In this document: piece after piece, positions 11,390 to 16,496 of the stretch
Layout: the number at the start of each line of letters is the position of its first letter
How positions within the stretch are numbered: position 1 is the first letter of the stretch
DNA from: an uncultured Anaerolineae bacterium
Lineage (GTDB): Bacteria > Chloroflexota > Anaerolineae > Aggregatilineales > UBA2796
Reading direction: 5' to 3'
DNA length: 64,000 nucleotides
Assembly (NCBI GenBank): GCA_938005675.1
Contig: CALKXH010000093.1
Coordinates: 1 to 64,000 of the forward strand
The notes under the pieces: generated by a model
Seen by the model: the letters and a program-made list of their open reading frames with translations, nothing else
Database searches by the model: none
What the model was told of the DNA's origin: nothing
Made by a program: the position numbers and the translations under genes

Positions 11390-12997
11390 CTAGCCTTCGT
11401 CGAGGCTCAGGCGGGCTATTGGCTGCACGGCGACCTCCGGCAGCAGCTCTTGGTAGGTCAGGACGTGAACGTGCGGCAACTCCACGTCGATCAGGGCGCG
11501 GACGGCGGCGCGCAGGTCGGGCGTGGTGACGAGGATCGGGGCGCTCTCAGCGGGGCGGGCGAGGTGAGCGCGCAAGGCGCTCAGCAGGCGCGCCCGCGCC
11601 CGCTCGGGCGCCTCAGTGACCGCCGCCTCCAGCTCAGGCGCGAGCAAGTAGACGCGGATGGGCGTCCCCTCGCGCGCCGCCTGCTGAGTCAGTTGGCGGC
11701 TGAGGCGCTGCCGCACAAAGGCGAGCAAGCCTGCCTCAAGGGGCGGCGGCGCGCCGACCTGCAAGCGCTCATCGAAGGCGATCTGATCGGGCGGCACGTG
11801 GATGTAGTCGTAGGCGAGGATCGCCTCGAGGATCAGGCGCATGTTGCGCACGCCGACTCCCTCCGCCAAAAGCGCGCGCAGCAGTCGCGCCAACGTCGGC
11901 GGCGCGATGCGCTCCTGAACGGCTTCGGCGAGGGCGGGGAAGGCGAGCCCGACCTGCTCGATCATACGTTGCGCCGCCGCTTGGCACAGGAACAAGGCGC
12001 TATAGCGGCGCAGCAGCGCGCTGACGTTCAGCACGAGGTAGCCAAAGGGCGTCCAGACGTAAAAGCCCTCAGCGCGGATGGCGTCGGCATCGGCGCTGTG
12101 CGCCAAGGCGAGTTGCCGTCCGTTGAGGGGGCTGTGGGCGGGCTGCGAGGGGATGCCGCGCTCGCTCAGCTGCTCAGGGCGCGCGTTGACCAAGACTTGC
12201 GCTGCGCTCAAGCCTTGCCACGGGGCGGAGGGCAGCTCGTTGAGGGCGAGCGCGAATTGGTTGAAGGGCAACGCCTCGTCTAGGGCAAAGGTCAGCGACG
12301 GGAGGCGGATGCCTAGCTCCTCGAAGAGCCCCTCGCGCATCAAGCTGAAGAGCGCGCGCTCGTCTTCGCCCGCCGACTCGGTCAGGGCGCGCAGAGTCGC
12401 GACGGAGCAGCAGATGGCGAGTTGTTGCGGACGCAGACGCGCCAAGAGCGCCTCGCCGCGCTCATCGGTCGATTCTTGCAGCACGGCAGCGATGGTCGAG
12501 GCGTCTCGCAGCGAGAGGCGCAACGCCAACAGCGGCGCAAGCGCCTTGCGCAAGGCGCTGAGCGGATAAGCGGCGAGCGCCTCAGGCAGCTGATCGCGGT
12601 AGGCGGCGAGGACGGGCTCGGTCAGCAGCTGGGCGGCTTGATCGCTCAGGGCGTGCTGCACAAACGCGCCGAAAAAGGACGGCATCCGCTCAGGTTGTTG
12701 GCTCAGCCACTGCGCTATCGCGCTGGCAGGGACGGGCGCGTAGAGCGCGCCGCTCTCTGCCGCGAAGAGTTGACTCTCAAGGCTATCGGCGTGGCGGCAC
12801 AGGTTGCCCTCGACGTACAAGGCGGCGAGCCCGTGCGGCAAAACGGCGCGCTCGACGGAGAGAGTCGGCGCGGCGGGGATGCCCAGCCGCGCGCAGAGGT
12901 CTTGCGCCGCCCCTTGCGCCGCCGCGCCGATGGCGGAGAGGTCGATCCCCTCGCCCAAGGCGCCATCAAGCTTGAGAGTCAGTCTGAGCGGCGTCAT
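11390..12997 (-). CDS. Soluble protein made of two tandem FlhA/SctV (FHIPEP) C-terminal cytosolic-domain-like modules
   Basis: LFEELGIRLPSLTFALDEALPFNQFALALNE...GIPSQPAHSPLNGRQLAL...LLRALLAEGVGVRNMRLILEAIL...APILVTTPDLRAAVRALIDVELPHVHVLTYQELLPEVAV follows the FlhA-C pattern; N-half repeats it (LSALRKALAPLLALRLSLRDASTIAAVLQ); no TM segment. Confidence 0.75.
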   Translation of the reverse strand: MTPLRLTLKLDGALGEGIDLSAIGAAAQGAAQDLCARLGIPAAPTLSVERAVLPHGLAALYVEGNLCRHADSLESQLFAAESGALYAPVPASAIAQWLSQQPERMPSFFGAFVQHALSDQAAQLLTEPVLAAYRDQLPEALAAYPLSALRKALAPLLALRLSLRDASTIAAVLQESTDERGEALLARLRPQQLAICCSVATLRALTESAGEDERALFSLMREGLFEELGIRLPSLTFALDEALPFNQFALALNELPSAPWQGLSAAQVLVNARPEQLSERGIPSQPAHSPLNGRQLALAHSADADAIRAEGFYVWTPFGYLVLNVSALLRRYSALFLCQAAAQRMIEQVGLAFPALAEAVQERIAPPTLARLLRALLAEGVGVRNMRLILEAILAYDYIHVPPDQIAFDERLQVGAPPPLEAGLLAFVRQRLSRQLTQQAAREGTPIRVYLLAPELEAAVTEAPERARARLLSALRAHLARPAESAPILVTTPDLRAAVRALIDVELPHVHVLTYQELLPEVAVQPIARLSLDEG

Positions 12998-15900
12998 CCT
13001 CTAGCTCTTCCTGTGCCAGCACGGTCAGGTACGGGAATTCGTAGCGCGTCAGGGGCGGCAGCGCCATGCACAAGCGCCAATCCGAGACGATCAGCGCCGC
13101 GCGCGGCTGCTCAGGCGGCAGCAGCGCCCGCAACGCCGCAAGGATTTCCTGAGCGACCGACGGCGGCATGGCGAGGTAGCTGGGCGAGTCGGCGACGAGA
13201 TGCTGCAGCAAGGTCGACTCGATCTCAGGCGGCAAGCGCAGAGTCGGCAAGTGGCGCGGCAACGCCTCTCGCAGGGCGAGGCGCGCCGCGCGGTACGCCG
13301 CCTCGAAGTCGGGCGCGCCCAGCGCCGTCAGCAAGCTGGGGCGCAACGGCAAGCCATCGCGCAGCAACAGACGCGCCAAGCGCAGCGCCGTCGCGCGCTC
13401 AGCCGTCGTGAGCGCCCCTTCGGGCTGCCACGCGCTCAGCAGATCGCTCAGGGTCTGCCAAGTCAGCAGATGCGGCAAGTTCTGGCGCAAGAGCGCCTCT
13501 AGGTGCAAGAGCAGATAGTCAAAGGGATCGTCCAGCAGCCGCAAGCGCAACAGGCGCGCCCGCGACGCCTCGCTTTGATTGATCCACGCGCCGCGCACCC
13601 GACTGAGCGGCTGGAGCGCCTCGCGCTGGACGCCGATCCCCGCCGCGCGCAACGTCTCAGGCGATTCCTCGCAGAAGAGCGTCCCCGTCGGCAGAAAATC
13701 GAGGGCGAGCGGCACTTCATCGAGGGCGATCAGGTAGGCATCGAGGGGCAGCGCCTCGTTGCGGCGCAGCCGCACGCCGGGCAAGCGGAAGCCCATCTCT
13801 TGAGCAAGGCGCGCCCGCAGATCGGGCAGGCGGCGCTCCAACAAATCCGACGGCGGGGCGTCCTCGGCGCTCAGCAAGCTCGGCGCGAGGTCGATCCGAA
13901 GCGGCGCCACCAGCGGGAAGCGCTCCGCGCCGATCTCAGTCAGGCTGAAGGTCTGAGCGAGATACTGCAGCAGCGCCGCAAAGAACGACTCGCCGATCTC
14001 AGGCGGCAAAACGTCGCGCAGCTCCGCCAACTGCCAGACGAACGGGACGTCGCCCGCCAAGGCGAGGCACGCCTCCGCCAACGCCGCGCCCATCGACGGG
14101 ACGCCCGCCGCCTTGAAGCGCTTGAGGGCGGCGTTGAACTCGGCGAGGTGCGGCTTGCCCTGCGCGAGGCGCACACAGGCAATGCGCGCGCGCAGCTCGC
14201 CCTGAAAGCGCGCGTCGTCGGGCAGGAATTCGCTCAGGGCGCGGTAGCGCTCCAAAGCGGCGCTCGCCTCGCCCTCTTTGAAGCGGTCGTCCGCCGCCTT
14301 CATCAGCTCGATCAGGGCGTCGCTCAGGCAAGCGCCCGCCTCCGGGAAGCGCTCTGGCTCGCCCAGCAGCCGTTGATAGCACGCCGCCGCATCTTCATAC
14401 CGTCCCGCCTCCATGTAGAGCCTGCCTAAGCTCGCCTGCTGCCCGATGAACTGCCAGCTCCCTTCAGGCGCGTCCTCGAGGCTCTCCAAGAGGGCGGTCA
14501 GCGGGAGGGGCTGCCCGATCTCCGCCGCCCGCTCGTTCAGACGCGCCTCGAAAGCATCGAGCAGGGCGTTGGCGGGCTCGGCGTGATCCCAATCGGCGCT
14601 GAGGCGGCGGACAGTCGGCAAGTCAAGGCGGATGAGCCGCCAATGTTGCTGCGGATTGCTGAGCAGCTCAGCCGCCTGCGCGAAAGCCGCCTCAGCGCTC
14701 TCCAGATCGGCGAGGGCGAGGTAAGCGAAGCCGAGATTGGCGTAAACATAGGTCGGCGACTCGCTCTCCTGCTGCAGGGCGCGCTCCAGATAGGGCAAGG
14801 CTTCCTCAGCGTAGCCGAGCATCACGCCCGCCCAGCCGCAGAGGTTGCCATCGGCGGCGTAGAGGGGCGAGTCGCGCTCCGCCCAGAGGTAGCGGTAGGT
14901 ATCGGCGGCGCGCTCGTAGTCGCCCAGCAGACGGTAGGCATCGGCGCGCACGCCCAGATACCACGCCAGCAGCGGATCGCTCGCCTCGATGGCGCGCCCG
15001 ATCAGCGCTAGGGCGCGCTCAGGCTGCTCCTGGTGCAAGTAGATGTAGGCTTGCACGGCGTCCGCCCACGCGCTGGGCTGCTTGGCGCGGAAGCGCTCTA
15101 AGAGCGGCAGCGCCTCCTCAAACTGACCGACGTTGGTCAGCGTGATGATCGAATCCTCAAGGGCGCTGTCATCGCCCAGCTGAGCGGCGCGCCGCGCCGC
15201 ATCGACGGCGAGGCGCTCCAGATCGAGCGCCCGATACGCCCGATTGAGCGCCTGCCAGCGATAGGGATCGCCGTCATCGAGGGCTAAGCCGCGCTCTAGG
15301 AAGGCGACCGCCTCCCAACGCAGAGTCTCAACGTCCTGAGCGGGCAAACGCGCCCGACTCTCGCACTGCAGGGCGCGCACATCGTACGCCCAAGCGTGCT
15401 CAGCATCAGGATGGCGCAGGGCGAAGCCTCTCTGGAGCGCCGCCTCGCTCTCAGCTAGGAGCGGCTCGTCCACAAAGGGGTGAGAGGGCAGCGCCGCCGC
15501 GCCCAGCAGCGCGTTCGCCAAGAGCCAGTGCGCCACGGCGCCATCGGGCTGCAGACGGCAAGCGGCGCGCAGCAGCTCCGCCGCGACCGCGTGCTGATTC
15601 AGCCACAGAAAACGCTTGCCCGCCTCAAGGTACGCTGCCGCCGCCTCCTCAGCCCGACCGAGCGCCTCAAGGACTTCGGCGCGCAGGCGATGGGCGATTC
15701 GGTCGGGCTGGGCGGTGTCGTCGCGCACGCCCAGCGCGAGGGCGCGCTCGGCGGCGCGCAATGCCGCCTCAAGGTCGCTGTGGCGCAAGCGCCGAACGGC
15801 TTGCAGGTACAGGTTGCCGCTCTGCGGGCGGTTGAATTGGCGCAGCGCCGCCAAGACCGTCGCATCGTTGCCCAACACGGCGAGGGCGTCGGCGTAGTGA

Positions 15901-16496
15901 TCGTCGGCGCGCAGCCACGCCCGCTCAGACTCTGCCAGCAAGCCCAAGCCGATGTGCGCATCGGGCGAGTTGTGTCGCAGCGCCCGCTGATAGTGCGCGC
16001 GCGCCGCCTCCGCCTCGCCCATGACGCGGAAATAGTCGCCCAGCGCCGCTTGCGCCAACGGATCGTCGGGCGCCAATTGGGCGGCTTGTTCAAGGCGGGC
16101 GCGGGCGAGGTCGGGCGCGCGCGCCAGCAGGGCGCGCCCCTCGCTGACCAGCGCCGCCACCGTCGGATCGGGCAGGTGCAACGCCGCGCGGAAGGCGCTC
16201 AGGAAGTCCCGCCAGAGCTTTTCTAACGCGCGGTGCGGCGCGTTGGAGAGCTCGGAGGGGAGCGCGCCCTCTTCGAGGGTCAGGGCGAGGATCGGCACGC
16301 CGTGCGTCTGCGCCGCCCGCCGTTCGGCGCTGCAAGTCAGACTCTCGGCGTAGCGCGGCGTGATCAGGGCGAGGAACTGATCGCACTCGGCGATCTGGTC
16401 GAGCGCGCCGCTGTAGAGCGCGTAGCCCGCCAAGGCGGCGCGCACAAGTTGCGCGTAGAGCGCGTCCTCAGGCGCGAAACTCAGGTAGAGCTTCAT
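12966..16496 (-). CDS. TIR-like / TPR repeat / FHIPEP C-domain-like multidomain protein (1176 aa)
   Basis: N-term MKLYLSFAPEDALYAQLVRAAL...CDQFLALITPRYAESLTCSAERRAA...VPILALTL (TIR-like); long TPR array; C-term LPDLRARLAQEMGFRLPGVRLRRNEALPLDAYLIALDEVPLA...LPPEIESTLLQHL...AALIVSDWRLCMALPPLTRYEFPYLTVLAQEEL. Confidence 0.75.
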   Translation of the reverse strand: MKLYLSFAPEDALYAQLVRAALAGYALYSGALDQIAECDQFLALITPRYAESLTCSAERRAAQTHGVPILALTLEEGALPSELSNAPHRALEKLWRDFLSAFRAALHLPDPTVAALVSEGRALLARAPDLARARLEQAAQLAPDDPLAQAALGDYFRVMGEAEAARAHYQRALRHNSPDAHIGLGLLAESERAWLRADDHYADALAVLGNDATVLAALRQFNRPQSGNLYLQAVRRLRHSDLEAALRAAERALALGVRDDTAQPDRIAHRLRAEVLEALGRAEEAAAAYLEAGKRFLWLNQHAVAAELLRAACRLQPDGAVAHWLLANALLGAAALPSHPFVDEPLLAESEAALQRGFALRHPDAEHAWAYDVRALQCESRARLPAQDVETLRWEAVAFLERGLALDDGDPYRWQALNRAYRALDLERLAVDAARRAAQLGDDSALEDSIITLTNVGQFEEALPLLERFRAKQPSAWADAVQAYIYLHQEQPERALALIGRAIEASDPLLAWYLGVRADAYRLLGDYERAADTYRYLWAERDSPLYAADGNLCGWAGVMLGYAEEALPYLERALQQESESPTYVYANLGFAYLALADLESAEAAFAQAAELLSNPQQHWRLIRLDLPTVRRLSADWDHAEPANALLDAFEARLNERAAEIGQPLPLTALLESLEDAPEGSWQFIGQQASLGRLYMEAGRYEDAAACYQRLLGEPERFPEAGACLSDALIELMKAADDRFKEGEASAALERYRALSEFLPDDARFQGELRARIACVRLAQGKPHLAEFNAALKRFKAAGVPSMGAALAEACLALAGDVPFVWQLAELRDVLPPEIGESFFAALLQYLAQTFSLTEIGAERFPLVAPLRIDLAPSLLSAEDAPPSDLLERRLPDLRARLAQEMGFRLPGVRLRRNEALPLDAYLIALDEVPLALDFLPTGTLFCEESPETLRAAGIGVQREALQPLSRVRGAWINQSEASRARLLRLRLLDDPFDYLLLHLEALLRQNLPHLLTWQTLSDLLSAWQPEGALTTAERATALRLARLLLRDGLPLRPSLLTALGAPDFEAAYRAARLALREALPRHLPTLRLPPEIESTLLQHLVADSPSYLAMPPSVAQEILAALRALLPPEQPRAALIVSDWRLCMALPPLTRYEFPYLTVLAQEELEDDAAQTDSQA

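Follow-up and report, generated by a model that had tools for sequence, protein, structure and literature searches.

In type III secretion, the cytosolic domain of the export-gate protein SctV assembles as a nonameric ring, which takes in complexes of chaperone and cargo. SctV-C and the SycD-type TPR proteins are parts of the type III secretion system (T3SS) that bind clients and chaperones. To our knowledge, the cytosolic domains of export gates have been seen only attached to a gate in the membrane. Here we describe a gene cassette in which such domains are found as soluble proteins beside a CHAT-domain protease. The cassette lies in a 64,000-nucleotide stretch of DNA from an uncultured Anaerolineae bacterium (Chloroflexota; contig CALKXH010000093.1), the whole of which we refer to as the window.

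The cassette proteins share the cytosolic domain of SctV (YscV/CdsV/InvA), which is the same by sequence, fold and tree placement, and an NPANG-type loop is present in most tandem members. They differ from SctV in having no membrane gate half, in being arranged in tandem or fused to TPR repeats, in their link to CHAT and in belonging to hosts most of which are missing FliP/SctR. Flagellar FlhA has a homologous cytosolic domain, assigned to the same Pfam family (FHIPEP), but it forms a separate clade, and the cassette proteins lack its transmembrane half and do not retain its dimple residues F459 and T490. The class II T3SS chaperones SycD/LcrH have a homologue in both well-covered Asgard loci; however, no FliP was found in the host of one of these (L102), so there is no export apparatus for the chaperone to serve.

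Several bacterial conflict systems also resemble the cassette in part. At the head of the Pelagihabitans pacificus operon are MBL and trypsin effectors of the types known from Avs1 and Lamassu, but a TPR-SctV-C pair stands in the place of a STAND or SMC sensor. No STAND or NTPase match, as would mark an Avs system, was found in the operon proteins scanned, nor was the SMC-like LmuB of Lamassu found in the operon, and LmuA-type effectors were present in the Pelagihabitans locus (L088) only. The CHAT protein of the window is best matched by the SAVED_CHAT model, which links it to the SAVED-CHAT (CBASS) and other CHAT effectors, but neither a SAVED domain nor a CD-NTase/nucleotide cyclase was found in the operon. 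The MoxR-vWA/iSTAND ternary conflict systems are similar in their multi-gene logic, swappable effectors and hosts, and one of them adjoins the L086 cassette; the cassette itself, in contrast, has no AAA or vWA. Neither FlhA nor FHIPEP is mentioned in the two papers on ternary conflict systems (Kaur 2020, doi 10.7554/eLife.52696; doi 10.7554/eLife.70394). No description of such a cassette was found in the open-access literature that links FHIPEP or the FlhA/SctV proteins to CHAT, to conflict systems or to phage, and within that literature it is apparently new. If the cassette is placed among the effector-swapping conflict systems, its platform has no precedent that we found there.

Operon organization

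The tandem SctV-C protein is encoded by the last gene of a four-gene operon in the order U, CHAT, TIR-like/TPR/SctV-C fusion and tandem SctV-C, with all four genes on the same strand (Table 1). A preliminary description of this DNA had delimited the tandem open reading frame correctly but had treated the protein on its own, missing the operon with its TPR-SctV-C fusion and CHAT protease and the presence of the cassette in several phyla. The gaps between successive genes (11 nt, -4 nt and -32 nt) suggest translational coupling of the operon. The motifs HFIGHG and LHLCEG, which begin at aa 211 and aa 260 of the window CHAT protein, show that its His/Cys dyad is present. The N terminus of the fusion matched TIR_2 at 23.9 bits, against a cut-off of 28, with E values of 6e-5 to 1e-4 that recurred in three congeners. 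An acyl-transferase Pfam match in the window was weak and overlapped the FHIPEP match, and we judged it spurious.

Table 1. Features of the cassette operon, in window positions
Feature	Size or residues	Position	Strand	Evidence and remarks
Tandem SctV-C protein	535 aa	11390..12997	minus	Last operon gene; 32-nt overlap with preceding gene
C-terminal complete SctV-C module	aa 181-529	11411..12457	minus	Pfam, NCBIfam SctV, Foldseek
N-terminal reduced SctV/FlhA-C module	aa 1-180	12458..12997	minus	hhalign, element order, dN/dS
TPR::SctV-C fusion	1176 aa	12966..16496	minus	Pfam TPR and FHIPEP 4.8e-21; start overlaps CHAT stop by 4 nt
SctV-C domain of fusion	aa 848-1174	12975..13955	minus	FHIPEP match, tree
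TPR region of fusion, limits approximate		13962..16139	minus	Pfam
TIR-like N-terminal domain of fusion	aa 1-110	16167..16496	minus	TIR_2 below Pfam cut-off; this genus only
CHAT-domain (caspase-like) protease	453 aa	16493..17854	minus	Pfam CHAT 8e-28; PADLOC SAVED_CHAT 8e-17
Lead gene U	309 aa	17866..18795	minus	No known family; GGAGG ribosome-binding site before it; 11-nt gap to CHAT

The lead gene is U in some cassettes and an unrelated gene, V, in others. No convincing PDB or Pfam relatives were found for either, no relationship between the two was detectable, and the structure model of U was of poor quality (pLDDT 43.5).

Architecture and fold of the tandem protein

The tandem protein is soluble and contains the cytosolic half of an export-gate protein only, as the preliminary description had held. 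Pfam FHIPEP matched the 535-aa open reading frame with E = 2.1e-34, aligning aa 181-522 to profile positions 321-656, which represent the cytosolic half alone, and the NCBIfam SctV model matched with an E value of 2.7e-33. Both the start of the FHIPEP match at profile position 321 and the hydropathy profile indicate that the N-terminal transmembrane gate domain is absent: no transmembrane helix was found, and maximum hydropathy over 19 residues was 1.28, compared with 3.16 in E. coli FlhA. An AlphaFold2 model built from a 13-sequence alignment had a pLDDT of 86.5 and a pTM of 0.87, and Foldseek ranked CdsV/SctV-C, InvA-C and FlhA-C as its top PDB matches, with E values as low as 7e-21 and target-normalised TM scores of 0.7-0.8, in keeping with the FlhA-C-related fold that had been anticipated. 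Pfam, NCBIfam and Foldseek agree in assigning the ACD1-4 cytosolic domain of the SctV/FlhA family to the protein.

Profile comparison and the order of secondary-structure elements show that the N-terminal half of the tandem protein is a real second copy of the module, in reduced form. Two tandem FlhA-C-type modules had been proposed at the outset, each expected to match FHIPEP; both modules exist, but the first is not an equal copy, and whereas the C-terminal half gave the strong Pfam match above, the N-terminal half resembled the family too faintly for an ordinary HMM match and was detected by profile-profile comparison. In hhalign, a profile of 11 N-modules matched FlhA-C along 186 columns from ACD1 to ACD3 (E = 6.9e-8) with a probability of 94.6 percent, compared with 0.2-0.4 percent for the control profiles CHAT, U and TPR. 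We note that a smaller alignment that included two misassigned FlhA rows had given 15-69 percent, and the rise came with additional relatives and the removal of those rows. The order of secondary-structure elements agrees between the two halves, a level of agreement equalled by one of 2000 shuffled orders. The N copy retains ACD1 and ACD3 and is missing the ACD2 insertion and ACD4. Purifying selection acts on both halves, with dN/dS of 0.23-0.42 in the N half and 0.12-0.31 in the C half.

Two other loci show departures from this architecture. The third gene of one cassette (L078:7992-8663, genome G116) encodes a single reduced module of 224 aa with ACD1 and ACD3 only, resembling the N half of the window protein alone. 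In a Bryobacterales MAG (L109:7917-9577), the tandem gene occupies two overlapping frames, owing to a frameshift or a sequence error.

Co-divergence, companion genes and deletion

The two SctV-C genes co-diverge, with r = 0.91 across all loci and 0.88 when one locus per close genus was used. Distances of CHAT and the SctV-C genes were correlated at r = 0.32-0.39 (n = 7, not significant), and in the CHAT alignment the His/Cys dyad was present in 11 of 15 proteins and lost in the remaining four. Companion genes varied among loci. The Pelagihabitans pacificus operon (L088:414-9104) consists of MBL, trypsin-CHAT-like, TPR-SctV-C and SctV-C genes. Its leading MBL protein matched LmuA (1.2e-112) and Avs1a (3.4e-45), and its trypsin-CHAT protein matched LmuA (2.9e-35) and Avs2 (2.6e-11); Avs/Lamassu-type effectors were found in this one locus. 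Just downstream of the operon, on the other strand, are another MBL gene and an uncharacterized gene for a protein of 663 aa. Two further cassettes have a different protein in the CHAT position (L087:1125-2930 and L104:1845-3275); it is conserved, belongs to no known family and shares 37 percent identity between the two loci. A third locus (L112) shows the two SctV-C genes only.

The two well-covered Asgard cassettes contain homologues of the SycD/LcrH-type T3SS chaperones (L102:8957-9439 and L163:11687-12163), which are 48 percent identical and gave matches of 1.3e-29 and 1e-24. Exo_endo_phos-family genes are located near both of these cassettes (L102:2-970 and L163:12282-13109). Caspase, iSTAND-like, AAA and vWA-CoxE genes (L086:12708-16708) lie approximately 3 kb downstream of another cassette. 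In a member of the same genus as the window (G755), the CHAT-TPR-SctV-C block has been deleted as a unit between the same flanking genes. The scar (L165:6969-7049) consists of 27 C-terminal codons of the tandem gene beside an FAD oxidoreductase, and U has been retained.

The cassette joins a constant platform to variable effectors, occurs patchily and can be dispensed with. Conflict systems usually show these features, none of which proves that the cassette is one. The presence of soluble export-gate domains in a conserved CHAT cassette, together with hosts that mostly have no secretion system, suggests that part of an export machine has been reused as a sensor or scaffold. We consider the chances evenly divided on whether a T3SS-derived cytosolic sorting ring now controls swappable effectors in this way, which makes the cassette a candidate conflict system of anti-phage or programmed-death type; a predicted role in cellular defence is itself about an even bet. 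Several observations speak against it: no defence-island signal was found in this genus, where the flanking genes are metabolic and syntenic; the CHAT dyad is missing from four of 15 proteins; Avs/Lamassu-type effectors are confined to one locus; an AU test gives no decision on a single origin of the soluble domains; and the residues of the chaperone-binding loop are unevenly conserved.

The cassette could instead be a cytosolic machine for protein sorting or regulated proteolysis, with no conflict role, whose SctV-C/TPR platform hands chaperone-bound clients to CHAT or to another secretion system. The client- and chaperone-binding functions of SctV-C and SycD-type TPR proteins in T3SS, and the SycD-like protein of the Asgard cassettes, would be consistent with such a machine. 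Additionally, within this genus the cassette lies on the chromosome, keeps its synteny and evolves under purifying selection. However, the cassette is patchy, being present in roughly 1 percent of the samples taken from the class and from the phylum, its effectors are swapped for known immune effectors, and the block has been deleted in a close relative, all of which argue against a sorting machine and lead us to consider it unlikely, though deserving of attention.

Distribution and hosts

The cassette extends well beyond the genus of the window. A single-protein search across the phylum mostly returned ordinary full-length FlhA, and soluble forms were told apart by a Pfam family search that reports profile coordinates. 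The gene order CHAT, TPR-SctV-C, SctV-C was repeated in Chloroflexota within the genus, the family and the class, as well as elsewhere in the phylum. A scan of 85,488 species genomes added the isolate Pelagihabitans pacificus and MAGs that bear the names Acidobacteria, Chloracidobacterium, Bryobacterales, Deltaproteobacteria or Heimdallarchaeota, and the order (U or V), CHAT, TPR-SctV-C, tandem SctV-C is common to distant lineages. Beyond the seeded genome, no cassette was found in 199 Acidobacteriota or in 250 Bacteroidota genomes, and no soluble SctV-C proteins were found in viral contigs. The plasmid matches among those listed were canonical T3SS proteins and were rejected as cassette members.

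The records from outside Chloroflexota are mostly metagenome bins, and two loci (L083 and L104) lie outside the check that was made, so this breadth would be overstated if the contigs were mis-binned. However, Pelagihabitans pacificus is an isolate that carries the cassette on a 1.7 Mb scaffold. In a second Asgard genome (L163), the cassette is reduced, lacking CHAT, and its 819 kb contig encodes a Ras-family GTPase close by; 3 of the 119 genomes of the Asgard phylum are positive. Given these records, we regard mis-binning as an improbable explanation for the breadth of the cassette.

Neither full-length FlhA nor FliP was found in the genome of the window. FliP was absent from all 10 Chloroflexota hosts and from five of the seven other hosts, the two exceptions being the hosts of L085 and L109. 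With no full-length FlhA in the genome of the window and no FliP in most hosts, there is therefore no canonical export gate for the SctV-C proteins to serve there. If the soluble family is indeed widespread, paired with CHAT and also archaeal, it would show that the ring can work without secretion. FHIPEP matches in non-motile genomes are, moreover, no evidence for flagella or injectisomes.

Ancestry of the soluble domains

The soluble domains group with SctV, the injectisome protein, and not with FlhA, so that SctV replaces FlhA, the family named in the preliminary description, as the likely parent. The tandem protein scored 115 bits with the SctV model versus 82 bits with the FlhA model, SctV was ahead in every tandem case run, and the best PDB relatives of the tandem protein are SctV proteins. 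In a tree of open reading frames chosen by HMM, from which three very long branches were left out, the tandem C-terminal domains formed one clade and the fusion domains another, and both had 100 percent bootstrap. A 100/100 split set FlhA apart and left both clades on the side of SctV. An AU test of a single origin for both soluble clades (p = 0.24) gave no decision.

Residues D456, F459 and T490 are what we take to be the chaperone-binding dimple positions of FlhA, and the equivalents of F459 and T490 in the tandem family are mostly the SctV-type N and L. The SctV signature residues of the chaperone-binding loop are mostly present in the tandem family (N in 11-12 of 14 members) and are poorly retained in the fusion protein. 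One of them is altered in the tandem copy of the window, where S occupies the D456-equivalent position.

Descent of the tandem domain from flagellar FlhA would be compatible with the span of Pfam FHIPEP, which covers both families, with the structural matches to FlhA-C and with the scores of the window's TPR fusion, for which the FlhA model is slightly ahead of the SctV model (51 versus 42 bits). The model scores of the tandem proteins, their PDB relatives, the separate FlhA clade and the replacement of F459 and T490 all argue against it, and we regard this origin as highly improbable. That the cassette is a relic in decay, left behind when a type III secretion or flagellar system was lost, as the missing export apparatus, the reduced N module and the absence of ACD4 or the ACD2 insertion from some family members might suggest, is largely refuted by purifying selection on all four genes (dN/dS of 0.15-0.34 for the whole tandem gene and approximately 0.1 for the CHAT, U and TPR genes) and by the recurrence of the same three- to four-gene order in several phyla with two co-diverging genes, which leaves it extremely improbable.

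Proposed mechanism

If the cassette is a conflict system, its SctV-C domains, cut off from the membrane gate, would serve as a soluble platform. The tandem protein and the TPR-SctV-C fusion would assemble, probably into a hetero-oligomer resembling a ring, where two neighboring positions may be filled by the tandem protein. A trigger could be bound by the TPR arms or, in archaea, by the SycD-like chaperone. Binding would then change the assembly and activate or recruit the companion effector. Judged by homology, the putative effectors are the CHAT protease and the TIR-like domain on the fusion in the window, and MBL and trypsin in Pelagihabitans. The outcome may be proteolysis, nuclease action or loss of NAD, limiting the invader or killing the cell.

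In its broadest form, this proposal would define a new class of immune system common to bacteria and Asgard archaea, in which a captured SctV-C ring and a TPR chaperone act as the sensor in the cytosol and set off exchangeable effectors of protease, nuclease or TIR type. We advance it tentatively, with its chances a little below even. If true, it would represent a new type of sensor for bacterial immunity. As a guess, the product of the lead gene, whether U or V, may regulate the system or be cleaved by the protease. One genome (G542) also has a distant relative of U that stands alone (L167:8821-9843), far from the cassette of that genome.
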